A stretch of 64,000 bases of DNA. Source: Microbacterium memoriense. GTDB taxonomy: Bacteria; Actinomycetota; Actinomycetes; Actinomycetales; Microbacteriaceae. This document shows positions 60,296-64,000 of the stretch, piece after piece; positions within the stretch are counted from its first letter, which is position 1; the number at the start of each line of letters is the position of its first letter. A model generated the notes under the pieces. It worked only from the letters and a program-made list of their open reading frames with translations, did no database searches and was not told where the DNA came from. The position numbers and the translations under genes are program-made. The stretch lies in the NCBI RefSeq assembly GCF_025398275.1, contig NZ_JAODOR010000003.1, positions 124,001 to 188,000 of the forward strand. Direction: 5' to 3'.

Positions 60296-60369
60296 GGGGC
60301 GGTGGCCAAGCTGGTCAAGGCAGCGGGCTCATAACCCGACGATCGTGGGTTCAAGTCCCACCCGCCCTA
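60296..60369 (+). tRNA. tRNA with CAT anticodon (Met or Ile2)
   Basis: The acceptor stem GGGGCGG (60296-60302) pairs with CCGCCCT (60362-60368), giving a G1-U72 wobble and discriminator A. The anticodon loop is CTCATAA (CAT). Three G-C pairs flank the loop, with a G27-A43 mismatch below them. The T-arm is GTGGG-TTCAAGT-CCCAC. No CCA is encoded. Initiator-like GGG/CCC pairs are present, but the rest does not look like actinobacterial initiator tRNA. Elongator Met or the Ile2 tRNA (lysidine-modified) remain the best options. Confidence 0.9.
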
Positions 60370-60387
60370 CGAGGATCGCGCTGCTGG

Positions 60388-61710
60388 TCACTCCTGACCG
60401 CGTTGCGCGAGAAGTCGGCGCAAGCCATCGCCGATGTGTGCCGAATCCGCGGTGACAAGAGCGCCATCGCGCACCACGGCTGTGCCGGCCACGAACACGT
60501 CACGGGGGCGGCGCCCGGGCGAGGCCCACAGCAGGCCCGCAACCGGGTCGGCGACGCCCGCGTCGGCGACGCCCGAGACATCCCAGATGCACACGTCAGC
60601 GGCCGCACCGGGGCGCAGGTGTCCGAGTTCGCTCCGGCCGAGGCCTCGGGCAGATTCTTCCGTCGCCATCGCGAGTACCGAGCGCGCCGACAGAGCGGGG
60701 CCGATGAGGCCCGACACCTGCATCGCCAGGCGCGCGTCTGCCCACAGGTGTCCGGCATCGTTGGAGCCGCCTCCGCTCGTGCCGAGCCCGACAGCGACGC
60801 CCGCTGCCTGCAGATCGGCGACGGGCGCGACTCCCCAGCCCATCGGCACATCGCAGCCGGGCGCGTGCGTTGCCGAGGCGCCGCGAGCCGCAATCCGTGC
60901 GATCTCGTCTGCGGTGACCCCGCACAGATGGGCGAGTGTGACGTCGGGGGCAAGCCAACCCCATTCGTCGAGCAGGTCCAAGGGGCGGCGGCCGAAGCGC
61001 TCTTGGGCGACCGTGACATCCACCTGTTCGTTGGCTTGAGTGCGGCGCCGAAGGCCGTGCTGTGCGGCGACCTCGCCGAGCAGAGCAAACGTCTCGGCCG
61101 GATCGGAATGCACGCCAGCGGGGCCAACGGCCAGCTGCAGCATCCCGCCACGGGTCACGCCGCTGACATCCGAATCAGACAACCATGCGCTCGCGATCGC
61201 CTCGGCGCTGGCCGCCGCTTCCTGCGGATCGTCGCGCGCGGCGCCGCGCACGAACACCAGGCGCCCGCCGAGCTGTTCCGCGGCATCCGCGGTCGCGGTC
61301 GCGAGTGCGAGGCTGTCGGCTCCGGCCGGCCACGTGAGGTGATGATCGGCGACGGTCGTCACGCCCGCGAGCAGGCCCTCGGCTACGCCGACGGATGCCG
61401 CGGCCCGCGCGAGCTCTGCGTCGACTCCGATACGCGAATATGCCGCGGCCATTGTCGGCAGCCAGGTGGCCATGGGGACGCTCCGCGTGCCGGGGAGTGT
61501 CCGGAACGCGCTTTGCAGCAAGTGATGGTGCGCGTTGATCAGCCCCGGGGTGAGGACGCAGCCGGTGGCGTCGATCTCGATCTCGTCGCCGCGTGCGTGC
61601 TCGTGGACGACTCCGTCGCGAATAATCAGCTCGGCGCCGGCTGCGAGCTCAACACCCCCGCCGATCACGATGGCGACGGCACCCGTGAATCGATAGCCGG
61701 TCGAGCTCAC
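60388..61710 (-). CDS. TRZ/ATZ-type amidohydrolase with altered active site
   Basis: This 440-residue protein has the subtype III amidohydrolase fold of 8-oxoguanine, hydroxyatrazine and guanine deaminases. LTPGLINAHHHLLQSAFRT holds the H-x-H ligands (H61, H63). H261 (LAHLCGV) is present. However, the third metal ligand His of the usual HLAE is Gln225 (TQANE), and the catalytic/metal Asp in the canonical GTDG is Ser312 (GTSGGGSND). The frame is intact and long. It may be a changed-chemistry enzyme or a pseudoenzyme rather than a canonical deaminase. The GTG overlaps the MetV/MetF-like stop (GTGA). It is the last gene of the four-gene operon. Confidence 0.87.
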   Translation of the reverse strand: MSSTGYRFTGAVAIVIGGGVELAAGAELIIRDGVVHEHARGDEIEIDATGCVLTPGLINAHHHLLQSAFRTLPGTRSVPMATWLPTMAAAYSRIGVDAELARAAASVGVAEGLLAGVTTVADHHLTWPAGADSLALATATADAAEQLGGRLVFVRGAARDDPQEAAASAEAIASAWLSDSDVSGVTRGGMLQLAVGPAGVHSDPAETFALLGEVAAQHGLRRRTQANEQVDVTVAQERFGRRPLDLLDEWGWLAPDVTLAHLCGVTADEIARIAARGASATHAPGCDVPMGWGVAPVADLQAAGVAVGLGTSGGGSNDAGHLWADARLAMQVSGLIGPALSARSVLAMATEESARGLGRSELGHLRPGAAADVCIWDVSGVADAGVADPVAGLLWASPGRRPRDVFVAGTAVVRDGALVTADSAHIGDGLRRLLAQRGQE

Positions 61711-62762
61711 AGTTCCTCCTTCAGACGGTGCGCGATCTCGGCGAGACTCTGCGCATGTTCGGTCTCACGCCCGGGGGCCGCGCCGCCGGACAGATCGACC
61801 CCGACGACCCCCTCGATCTGAAGCATGGCCAGGGAGAGTGAGACGGCGGCGGCGATACCTGCTTCGCGGGGATCCGCCGCGCTGAGAATGCTCTCGAGAT
61901 AGCCGGGTGGCAACACGAGGGTCGTGAAAGTGCGGAGCAGGTGCGCAGACCCCTCGTCGAGCACGACCGGCACGCACGGGAGGAAGCCGGAGGTGCTCCC
62001 CAGCATCCGCGCCTGTGCAATGAAGCGCGCCACGGGTTCGGCGCCGCCGCAGTGATTGACAAAGCACAACTCTGCGCCCGCCTTCTCCTTTTCGCGGAGG
62101 CGAGCAGCCCGTCGATCGACCGGCGGAGTGGTGGGCGATTCCGCAACAGACACAAGATGCCCCGCGGCACGGGCCAGAGCGGTGAGCTCGGTCGCGTCGA
62201 GATCGAACACCGGCATGGCATCGGGACGTGAACCGGTATGGGTGTGGTCGCCCGTGATGCAATGAACGACACCGGCTCCGGCATGCGCGAGCCCGGCAAG
62301 CTCGCCTTCGAGCGCCACCCGGTTGCGGTCTCGACAGTTCAGCCCGATGAAGGGCAGCATGTCCGCGTCGGCGATCAAGCGGGCGCGATAGCTCGGTGCG
62401 AACTGCACGCGCGCGGGCCCCGCATCGCCGGAGAGGACGGCGTCGACTGGCCCAGCCATGGCCGCGACGCACTCCTCGAGCGAGCGCGCGTCGACCGCAC
62501 GCGCCGGAAAGTCCGCGACGACGAGAGGCCGCTCACCGAGCAGTGCGCGGACGCGCTCGGACCCGGCTGACGGTGACTGAACGACCGTCGGGGCGGGTGG
62601 CCTGCGCCACCCCACCGTGTCGATATCGACGAAGGCGCAGCGCGTCGCAGCGTCGATCTCACACGATCCGTCGAACCCGACGCCGCCGCATGGCCCATAG
62701 GTCATGTGCTTCGGGCACGACGAGCTGCTGTCAACCGGCAAGGAAGCGCCTCTCCCAACCAT
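61707..62762 (-). CDS. MetV/MetF-like methylenetetrahydrofolate reductase-family protein
   Basis: This protein of about 351 residues begins with a Cys-rich segment CPKHMTYGPCGGV...GSCE...RC (C16, C25, C34, C42 from the ATG at 62762). It matches the MTHFR C-terminal (MetV-type) domain signature. The rest is a MetF-like TIM barrel with GLNCRDRNRVALEGEL, CITGDHTHTGS, and KEKAGAELCFVNHCGG in the order seen in MTHFR. The catalytic FEFFPP region is diverged to VADFPAR. Possible starts are GTG 62807, ATG 62762 and TTG 62741 (with GGGAGAGG upstream); ATG is used. Likely flavin- and folate-dependent one-carbon chemistry. Confidence 0.82.
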   Translation of the reverse strand: MVGRGASLPVDSSSSCPKHMTYGPCGGVGFDGSCEIDAATRCAFVDIDTVGWRRPPAPTVVQSPSAGSERVRALLGERPLVVADFPARAVDARSLEECVAAMAGPVDAVLSGDAGPARVQFAPSYRARLIADADMLPFIGLNCRDRNRVALEGELAGLAHAGAGVVHCITGDHTHTGSRPDAMPVFDLDATELTALARAAGHLVSVAESPTTPPVDRRAARLREKEKAGAELCFVNHCGGAEPVARFIAQARMLGSTSGFLPCVPVVLDEGSAHLLRTFTTLVLPPGYLESILSAADPREAGIAAAVSLSLAMLQIEGVVGVDLSGGAAPGRETEHAQSLAEIAHRLKEEL

Positions 62763-63354
62763 CGGCGCGACGGGTGTATTCGACGCGCCTGCTCGCGGTG
62801 TCGTCACTGCCGAACCAGAAGGTCAGCCGGTCGGGGCGCACGAGGTAGCCGACCCACGAGGGTGGGGGAACGAAGCTTGCCTCCTGGGCGCTTGCAAAGT
62901 CGGCCCACGCGGCGACCCGCTCCGGCTGGGGAAGGGCCGCGAACTCGGGTGTGTTCTGCCACGCAAGCTGTTGCAGATAGGGCGGGCGTGCCGCGTAGGC
63001 CCGCCGCTGTTCGTCTGCGGATGCCGGTTCAGCGCGCCCTTGCACGACGAGCTGGTGGCGCGAGTCGGGGGTCGGCGTACCGAGAAGCGGAATGCACAGC
63101 GCGACGAGAGCAGACCGCGTGACCTGGGCGACCTTGCGCGATCGTGCGTCGGTGTGCCAGTAGAAGCCCTCGGCATCCCACTCCGACAGCAGCAGCGACC
63201 GGGCATCGGGCGCCCCGTTCTCATCGAGCGTCGCGAGCGTCATGAGTGGGCGCGCGGGGTCGTCGTTCGCGGGTAGCCAGACGGACAGGAGCCGCGACGG
63301 GTCGTCCGGGAGGTCGGCCCATTCGTCGGCAGAGAGTTCACCGTGCATGGTCAT
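62731..63354 (-). CDS. Pyridoxamine 5'-phosphate oxidase family flavoprotein
   Basis: This protein of about 207 residues has the split-barrel FMN-binding fold close to PdxH. PLMTLATLDENGAPDARSLLL and FYWHTDARSRKVAQ are FMN-contact blocks, and PPPSWVGYLVRPDRLTFWFG is near the C-terminus. The terminal R-L-x-P of PdxH is replaced by RRFLAG, so the substrate may differ. ATG 63354 overlaps the creatininase stop (ATGA), and its own stop lies within the next gene's 5' end. A function in a pathway with its operon partners rather than vitamin B6 synthesis is inferred. Confidence 0.87.
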   Translation of the reverse strand: MTMHGELSADEWADLPDDPSRLLSVWLPANDDPARPLMTLATLDENGAPDARSLLLSEWDAEGFYWHTDARSRKVAQVTRSALVALCIPLLGTPTPDSRHQLVVQGRAEPASADEQRRAYAARPPYLQQLAWQNTPEFAALPQPERVAAWADFASAQEASFVPPPSWVGYLVRPDRLTFWFGSDDTASRRVEYTRRADGWERRFLAG

Positions 63355-64000
63355 ACCGCCCTGGGGCCGATCGGCCATCTCGAGATCTCGTCGATTGTGG
63401 CGACGCCGTCCTCGACCAGCCGCGCCGCCAACGCGGCACCTTCCGCTGCGGTCGCCGTCGTCGGGTCGCCGATCACTCCACCCGACGCGAAGTCGTCCGA
63501 GCACCAGCCGAACTGCACGGGGCTCGCGGCGAAGCCGATGCGCTCGAAGCCCGCGAGTGCGTCGGGGACGGCACGAGTCGCAGCGGTCGTATCGACCAGG
63601 TCGGGCCGCAGGTGCATGAGCAGCGACGTCTCACCGTGCCCGCCGTGAATCCCGAAGCCGCGCTCATCGGGGCCAGCCGGGACTCGCACGCCGTCGAGGA
63701 AGGTGTTCAAGCCGAACTGGCGCCGCAACTCACGCAGCGCCACGTTGAGCGGGGCGATATTGCCCCCGTGCCCGTTGTAGAAGAGCACGGTGCGTGCCGG
63801 AGTCGCAGCGATCGAGCGGCCGAGGTCGACGAGGACTCGTGCGAACGTCTCTCCGGAGAGCCACAGGGTCCCGGGCGCCCACGCGTGTTCGTCCGACTTC
63901 GTCACGCCGAGCGCTGGCAGAAGCCACGCGTCGTGACCGGCCTGGGTCGCGGCATCCACGATGCGCGCGGCGATCTCTTCCGCCATCACGAGATCCGTCG
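63351..64000 (-). CDS. Creatininase family amidohydrolase (N-terminus outside window)
   Basis: The frame is open to the window edge; about 216 residues are seen and the usual LPxGxxEQHG metal segment must lie beyond. Visible family marks are the end of that region (TDLVMAEEIA), FYNGHGGN, and HGGHGETS with the metal-binding Glu, followed by LLMHLRPDLVD. Creatininase relatives hydrolyse cyclic amides (creatinine, formamidopyrimidine intermediates) or act in cofactor maturation (MftE). It is the most upstream visible gene of the four-gene operon. Confidence 0.92.
   Translation of the reverse strand, partial: TDLVMAEEIAARIVDAATQAGHDAWLLPALGVTKSDEHAWAPGTLWLSGETFARVLVDLGRSIAATPARTVLFYNGHGGNIAPLNVALRELRRQFGLNTFLDGVRVPAGPDERGFGIHGGHGETSLLMHLRPDLVDTTAATRAVPDALAGFERIGFAASPVQFGWCSDDFASGGVIGDPTTATAAEGAALAARLVEDGVATIDEISRWPIGPRAV

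Follow-up and report, generated by a model that had tools for sequence, protein, structure and literature searches.

Two described systems are among the closest to the locus analysed here. The first is a flavoprotein deposited in the Protein Data Bank (PDB) as 6v42, under the title 'Crystal structure of the flavin oxygenase with cofactor bound involved in folate catabolism'. The second is the folic acid degradation of Variovorax sp. F1, which, in the portion of the article consulted (PMC9513972), employs carboxypeptidase G together with a pterin deaminase of 399 residues, whose activity on folic and pteroic acid was demonstrated; the same portion reports conserved endoribonuclease genes downstream of the V. 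paradoxus orthologs of this deaminase, and leaves the later steps of the degradation open. Here we describe a ten-gene operon of Microbacterium memoriense, whose tail lies at the end of a stretch of 64,000 nucleotides (contig NZ_JAODOR010000003.1, positions 124,001 to 188,000; hereafter the window) and which includes FADOX, a relative of 6v42. Sequence comparison, structural models and analogy with the above systems suggest, with a probability of roughly 0.55, that the operon serves to take up and break down a heterocycle of the pterin type, either one derived from folate or a free pterin.

Organization of the operon

A preliminary description, made from the window, had proposed a four-gene operon for the creatininase-like, PNPOx-like, MetF-like and amidohydrolase genes at the window end. 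The overlaps that it gave are correct: four nucleotides (ATGA, 63354-63351) between CREAT and PNPOX, four nucleotides (GTGA, 61710-61707) between METF and AHY1, and 77, 32 or 11 nucleotides between PNPOX and METF, depending on whether METF starts at GTG 62807, ATG 62762 or TTG 62741. Several METF orthologs start near a CPK motif. Judging from the overlaps, the four genes are presumably co-translated. The proposed operon was too short, however, since the four genes are only the tail of a ten-gene operon cut by the window. Further members, for which a search beyond position 64000 had been suggested, were found on the same contig (stretch L002) as six co-directional genes, joined by overlaps of 1-4 nucleotides or gaps of 39-58 nucleotides. 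The complete order is AHY2, ABC ATPase, permease, substrate-binding protein (SBP), SDR, FADOX, CREAT, PNPOX, METF and AHY1. In the following list, coordinates outside the window are L002 coordinates plus 60000 with inferred starts; gene calls in the GC-rich loci come from a custom frame-composition caller, and starts may be misplaced.

60388-61710, minus strand: AHY1, COG0402-type amidohydrolase (PF01979), final gene of the operon
61707-62807, minus strand: METF, protein with a methylenetetrahydrofolate reductase (MTHFR) fold and an N-terminal cysteine-rich MetV-like region (PF12225); alternative starts as above
62731-63354, minus strand: PNPOX, FMN split-barrel protein (PF01243 and PF10590)
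63351-64000, minus strand: CREAT, creatininase-superfamily protein (PF02633), truncated by the window end; the full gene is probably L002 3351-4130, extending to window-equivalent 64130
64127-65461, minus strand: FADOX, FAD enzyme
65503-66246, minus strand: SDR
66286-67461, minus strand: SBP of an ABC transporter
67520-68332, minus strand: ABC permease
68332-69069, minus strand: ABC ATPase
69066-about 70313, minus strand: AHY2, cytosine-deaminase-like amidohydrolase
70467-71075, plus strand: HTH-cupin regulator, divergent
about 71069-72037, plus strand: RED, VanB/PaaE-like reductase, divergent

The families first assigned to the creatininase, PNPOx and amidohydrolase proteins are borne out by Pfam; for the MetF-like protein Pfam lists only PF12225, and the MTHFR fold comes from a structural model. 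A tRNA-Met gene lies at window positions 60296-60370, 17 bases from the end of AHY1, and the cluster may therefore have entered as an island at this gene; the GC content of the operon (0.687), however, is near that of the window (0.677).

Relationship to 6v42 and to proteobacterial modules

A sequence search of the PDB with FADOX returned 6v42 with an E-value of 1.7e-38, the runner-up reaching 6e-10. The FADOX ortholog of locus L033 matched the same entry at E 2.1e-39 across residues 14-437, and the model of this ortholog (pLDDT 84.4) had 6v42 as its top structural match (Z 38.0, rmsd 2.7, 422 residues, 26% identity), followed by the next match at Z 31.2.

Relatives of 6v42 were detected in 141 plasmid records, the best being 66% identical. 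Eight of these stretches were opened, one of which carried no annotation, and in all seven annotated ones creatininase, amidohydrolase, ABC transporter and RidA genes were located beside the FADOX homolog. The identity to 6v42 was 66% in Rhizobium (e.g. Rhizobium brockwellii, NZ_CP053440), 64% in Agrobacterium, 52% in Sulfitobacter, 45% in Mameliella, 43% in Pseudosulfitobacter and 41% in Pantoea and Klebsiella. Four of the seven modules also contain an NAD(P)H-dependent oxidoreductase that may be a flavin reductase, those of Pantoea and Klebsiella contain a PDR/VanB reductase, and XdhC and PaoABC genes adjoin the Rhizobium module. Searches of the plasmids by tblastn with the L033 FADOX (1e-40) and with METF (1e-8) gave no match.

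The combination of FADOX, amidohydrolase, creatininase-like protein and ABC transporter that characterizes the modules of the 6v42 type is present at the window cluster. Homology with the proteobacterial operons (6v42/6v43 and relatives) extends to CREAT (31-40% identity), the ATPase (44-46%), the permease (35-38%) and FADOX (27-30%), to RED (37-38%), whose VanB-type counterparts occur in Pantoea and Klebsiella, to AHY2 (25-33%) and, weakly, to SBP (21-29%); AHY1 has a 29% match in an amidohydrolase encoded ahead of the Klebsiella module on its upstream side. For RED, inspection of the L098, L107 and L110 gene lists by eye showed no Rieske partner. The actinobacterial cluster differs from the proteobacterial operons in adding METF, PNPOX, SDR and AHY1, in the uricase/xanthine dehydrogenase (XDH) neighbourhood of most family genomes with FADOX, and in that its FADOX loci show no match to RidA or to the flavodoxin-like NAD(P)H oxidoreductase, for which PNPOX may possibly stand in.

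In a survey of genome sets, whose family and class labels (Microbacteriaceae, Alphaproteobacteria) were inferred from named relatives, 16 of 337 alphaproteobacterial genomes carried FADOX. Matches at these 16 loci included an amidohydrolase (13), a strong ABC ATPase (13), an oxidoreductase (11), CREAT (10) and RidA (6), and none of at least 40 bits to METF; some of these contigs are short, and L158 is seemingly the plasmid of L147 again. Wherever contigs of the survey are short (e.g. L138, L140, L171-L173), the presence counts are lower bounds.

The resemblance to Variovorax is a looser anchor, known from a text description, and we treat it as a lead. The amidohydrolase of the Pantoea module has 399 residues, with RidA directly downstream. 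Proteins of the RidA family are often annotated as endoribonucleases. The amidohydrolase-RidA pairs of Pantoea and Klebsiella may thus parallel the deaminating amidohydrolase and downstream endoribonuclease gene described, in the part of PMC9513972 consulted, for Variovorax; in contrast to that system, carboxypeptidase G was not recognised by eye in the cluster gene lists. Riboflavin and lumichrome degradation was also considered, given the several flavoprotein members of the cluster. The consulted part of PMC12746152 describes, for the rca and lum genes, a comparable route in which a pyrimidine-fused ring is hydrolysed and oxidised step by step with the help of a xanthine-oxidase-type enzyme, but the gene set is a different one (P450, the hydrolases LumH/I/M, LumK/L and a Rieske dioxygenase), and this candidate was rejected.

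Conservation and gene order in actinobacteria

FADOX was found in 51 of 299 family genomes (E≤1e-80) and in 24 of 394 class genomes (E≤1e-60). METF was found in 33 of the 299 family genomes (E≤1e-10), 32 of which also carry FADOX, and is absent from 19 of the 51 FADOX genomes. Nineteen of the 24 class loci were read with bit-score thresholds (the window's own locus and four that lie on other contigs were left out); 18 of these have AHY2 and the ABC genes, 17 have CREAT, 13 METF and 5 PNPOX.

The gene order varies. The f25 loci have METF-AHY2-ATPase-permease-SBP-FADOX, Pseudonocardia and Ruania have CREAT-amidohydrolase-METF, and most family members have METF and PNPOX in convergent orientation, which indicates a module whose order has been shuffled. 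In each of the 20 flanks fetched, the AHY1 copy (65-76% identical) is placed on that side of the cluster where the reductase belongs, although several kb from RED in L099 and L110, and with no RED match in L112. Among the loci compared, the same-strand order CREAT-PNPOX-METF-AHY1 occurs only in the window, in L033 (73-93% protein identity to the window) and in the record that comprises the two contigs L036 and L038 (91-100%). The expectation of a conserved four-gene set thus holds for the set, which reaches far beyond this strain in family, class and proteobacterial loci, whereas the exact order is confined to near relatives; the possibility, raised at the outset, that the genes are adjacent only in this strain can be set aside. 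The earlier view of an apparently catabolic, co-directional set for a nitrogen heterocycle is likewise supported. Soil actinobacteria and proteobacteria have the operon core in common, and its probable function is the uptake and breakdown of folate-type (pterin) ring compounds. Like the preliminary description, our literature search came upon no named pathway with this gene set: among the titles and abstract beginnings of the collection searched, no publication on the cluster was found, nor one combining creatininase with MTHFR, amidohydrolase or pterin.

The record of L036 and L038 (JACEFY010000214.1 and JACEFY010000015.1) is titled Stenotrophomonas maltophilia P13; the genome of L038 is listed at 2.7 Mb, and the record looks mislabelled or contaminated by a Microbacterium-like genome. 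Additional clusters were also observed. In L092 (7257-17261, genome G007), a second related cluster has two MetF-like genes flanking the genes of two permeases, an ATPase and an SBP-like protein; these are followed by an amidohydrolase, by an HTH-cupin-like regulator and by a FADOX that shares about 44% identity with the window copy. Near the main module of L110 (2822-7479; L099 is similar) there are a second SBP, an amidohydrolase, a RutB/biuret-hydrolase-like protein, a protein of 158 residues that matches no NCBIfam model, and another member of the creatininase family.

Predicted roles of the operon proteins

In the pathway that we propose, the substrate would be taken up by the NMT1/tauT-like ABC transporter, and AHY2 and/or AHY1 would remove the ring amino group, converting a pterin into a compound of the lumazine type. 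AHY2 residues H100, H102, H246, E249 and D343 align with CodA, where we assume the corresponding positions to be functional, and are conserved in at least 95% of 31 orthologs. AHY1 has TrzN (193.7 bits) and then 8-oxoguanine deaminase (175.5 bits) as its best PDB matches, and scores 242.9 bits with the 8-oxoguanine deaminase model NF006055, under the cut-off of 532.

FADOX would then oxidise or cleave the ring system, with RED (VanB-like) and PNPOX (FMN) handling electrons or flavin. PNPOX is not a PdxH: this assignment was rejected because the PLP-binding positions, which we take to be Arg197/His199 of PdxH, read T and S, and the pdxH model gave 79.8 of 180 bits; the R-L-H of the PLP-binding site occurs in none of 33 PNPOX orthologs. 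CREAT may hydrolyse a cyclic amide. It belongs clearly to the superfamily (PF02633, 202.5 bits against a cut-off of 31.3), and remains under the cut-offs of the creatininase (EC 3.5.2.10) equivalog TIGR04448 (69 bits, cut-off 235) and of the MftE model (134.1 bits, cut-off 172). Its residues E37, H39, D48 and H123, conserved in at least 95% of 35 orthologs, presumably correspond to metal-ligand positions of creatininase, with Gly125 at the place of the fifth ligand. SDR would act on a side-chain alcohol or carbonyl, and the products may reach the purine genes that lie nearby in most family genomes with FADOX (XDH family, 8-oxoguanine deaminase, uricase, allantoinase).

Link to purine catabolism

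Uricase (PF01014) is present in 48 of the 51 family genomes with FADOX, where about 15 would be expected by chance; the corresponding p-value of 1e-26 ignores phylogeny and overstates independence. The two genes share a contig in 47 genomes and lie within 50 kb in 46 and within 25 kb in 43, the exceptions being G123, in which they are 3 Mb apart, and G029, in which they are on separate contigs. Likewise, 30 of the 33 METF genomes have uricase. In many family genomes the module lies in or beside a purine island with uricase and with allantoinase, hydroxyisourate hydrolase and OHCU decarboxylase genes named by inspection. In L080 and L084, METF adjoins allantoinase and uricase, FADOX being about 12 and 19 kb off. 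A few genes from AHY1 in L107 there are XdhC-family and XDH-family proteins, under equivalog cut-offs, and a nearby AHY1 paralog passes the 8-oxoguanine deaminase model (654.7 bits, cut-off 532).

In classical biochemistry, tetrahydroxypteridine is converted to xanthine-8-carboxylate and xanthine; McNutt, and Rappold and Bacher, reportedly described the formation of both compounds from lumazines. Because of this route, purine genes near FADOX fit the degradation of a pterin, and they fit a purine substrate equally well. The principal alternative is that the operon degrades a modified purine, for example an N-methylated or oxidised one, ahead of the xanthine-urate-allantoin pathway, with the deaminases, CREAT and FADOX acting on purine or hydantoin intermediates. 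The frequency and proximity of uricase, the XDH-family and XdhC-family proteins and true 8-oxoguanine deaminase near AHY1 in L107, the two PDB enzymes nearest to AHY1, and the immediate proximity of METF to allantoinase and uricase in L080 and L084 all speak for it. On the other hand, the nearest structure to FADOX is the folate-catabolism oxygenase 6v42, inspection by eye showed no uricase in the stretches read from Pseudonocardia, Ruania and f25, none was noticed in the proteobacterial stretches with annotation, and the use of XDH with xanthine as the end product is possible for a pterin route as well. We therefore regard a modified purine as an unlikely substrate, though one to be taken seriously.

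METF, an MTHFR-fold protein with a probably altered active site

The AF2 model of METF (pLDDT 82.8) matches MTHFR structures best (Thermus thermophilus MTHFR: Z 25.3, rmsd 2.9, 265 residues, 19% identity), and its first 31 structural matches are all MTHFR or methyl-tetrahydrofolate-binding relatives. At the sequence level the relationship is distant. PF02219 is unmatched in METF, only PF12225 (the cysteine-rich MetV part) being listed by Pfam, and a single-sequence phmmer search of the PDB with METF gave no match. A profile of the close family (A1) found human MTHFR at E 4.9e-7, a wider profile that holds distant MetF rows (A2) gave an MTHFR match at E 7.7e-20, and hhalign of METF with the genome's own MTHFR gave E 5e-6. 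The latter, the single PF02219 match of the genome, is a separate, canonical MTHFR located elsewhere, at C24.

In an alignment of 35 METF sequences the four N-terminal cysteines are almost invariant, the RDRNR motif is invariant and K-x-x-A-G-A is present. We take the cysteine region to resemble MetV of the acetogen MetF/MetV pair, here fused. T185-G186-D187 is also invariant and aligns with the R-G-D of MTHFR, D187 presumably corresponding to Asp120 of the G-D motif. METF thus shares with canonical MTHFR the TIM-barrel fold and the G-D motif, but differs from it in the lack of a PF02219 match, in its location in a catabolic operon and apparently at two positions that we assume to belong to the active site, the catalytic Glu28 and Gln183 (E. 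coli MTHFR numbering). The strand-1 Glu position, assigned by strand order and by eye, seems to be occupied by D in rows of the Microbacteriaceae type and by G in several rows of the Pseudonocardia type; at the Gln183 position, aligned by eye, the window clade has Asn and several relatives have Gln. On these grounds we designate METF an MTHFR-fold paralog with a putative enzymatic reaction. Two further genes recur near METF, both named by inspection: a TPP enzyme resembling pyruvate/indolepyruvate decarboxylase (cluster c23), beside or near METF in L064, L075, L080, L083, L087 and L088, and a SAM-methyltransferase-like open reading frame (cluster c35), which adjoins METF in L067, L072 and L073.

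Under the pterin reading, METF may bind the reduced folate substrate itself, for instance oxidising 5-methyl-tetrahydrofolate and so opening the pterin to attack, and would then take no part in general one-carbon metabolism. A more far-reaching version, tentative and on the whole doubtful, is that METF is an MTHFR turned catabolic, which oxidises or demethylates environmental 5-methyl-tetrahydrofolate while PNPOX and RED handle the electrons, the operon and the purine island carrying the pterin on to lumazine, xanthine and urate.

The preliminary description had instead proposed that an N-methyl or one-carbon unit of the substrate ends on tetrahydrofolate, with METF oxidising the resulting methyl-tetrahydrofolate. 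In its favour, METF has the MTHFR fold with the T-G-D aspartate and the lysine region retained, is arranged within the cluster in at least four different ways and adjoins the methyltransferase-like reading frame in three loci. However, no methyltransferase family is listed for the ten operon proteins in the Pfam and NCBIfam scans, METF is missing from more than a third of the family FADOX genomes and unseen in the alphaproteobacterial loci, its Glu and Gln positions appear to be changed, and a canonical MTHFR exists elsewhere in the genome; we therefore consider this transfer improbable. The earlier account was probably wrong about where folate comes in, since the structural neighbour of FADOX suggests folate or pterin as the compound degraded and not as the one-carbon acceptor.

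Least probable of all is that the operon acts on some other cyclic amide, such as creatinine/N-methylhydantoin, a pyrimidine or a triazine-like ring, and that 6v42 carries its folate title because of a side case: a RutB/biuret-hydrolase-like gene in the related cluster of L110 (NCBIfam), AtzE/AtzH-like, acetamidase/formamidase-like and LLM-monooxygenase-like genes identified by inspection (L131, L142, L128, L039), the resemblance of AHY1 to TrzN and the match of AHY2 to CodA, about as good as to the proteobacterial module enzymes, would fit it, but CREAT falls far short of the creatininase equivalog and both relatives with experimental work, 6v42 and the Variovorax deaminase, the latter as described in the consulted part of its source, point to folate.

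Points against a pterin substrate

Several observations weigh against the degradation of folate-derived pterins. The label 'folate' rests on one PDB title and on the text description of the Variovorax locus, and no publication naming both 6v42 and 6v43 was found in the literature search. FADOX has only 26% identity to 6v42, and AHY2 is about as near to CodA as to the proteobacterial enzymes (25-33%), so that a change of substrate is possible. Across 105 loci, including 57 actinobacterial FADOX loci, neither RidA nor the NAD(P)H oxidoreductase of the proteobacteria gave a match, and the same test detected them in 14 and 16, respectively, of 24 proteobacterial control loci. Neither carboxypeptidase G nor p-aminobenzoyl-glutamate hydrolase was recognised in the gene lists, no model search having been made for either. 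METF is not part of the core, given that it is absent from 19 of the 51 family genomes with FADOX and was not found in the proteobacterial modules, and the purine neighbours suit a purine substrate equally. Finally, the window genome itself (G000) has no uricase match. On another contig it carries an XDH-family gene, above the PF02738 cut-off, together with genes that by inspection encode XdhC, an ABC transporter and a protein resembling allantoate amidohydrolase; urate may be handled there by another enzyme.

Significance

Genes have yet to be assigned to the late reactions of folate and pterin degradation in bacteria, which the consulted part of PMC9513972 leaves open. The present comparison links a single conserved module, found in rhizobia, in some enterobacteria and in soil actinobacteria, with an oxygenase whose crystal structure is titled for folate catabolism and, less tightly, with a pterin deaminase of proven activity. 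METF provides an example of an MTHFR paralog taken into a catabolic operon, and its catabolic version, if true, would give actinobacteria a complete folate-to-urea route. The strong physical link between the module and urate catabolism in one actinobacterial family would make a convergence of pterin and purine degradation testable with about a dozen purified enzymes.

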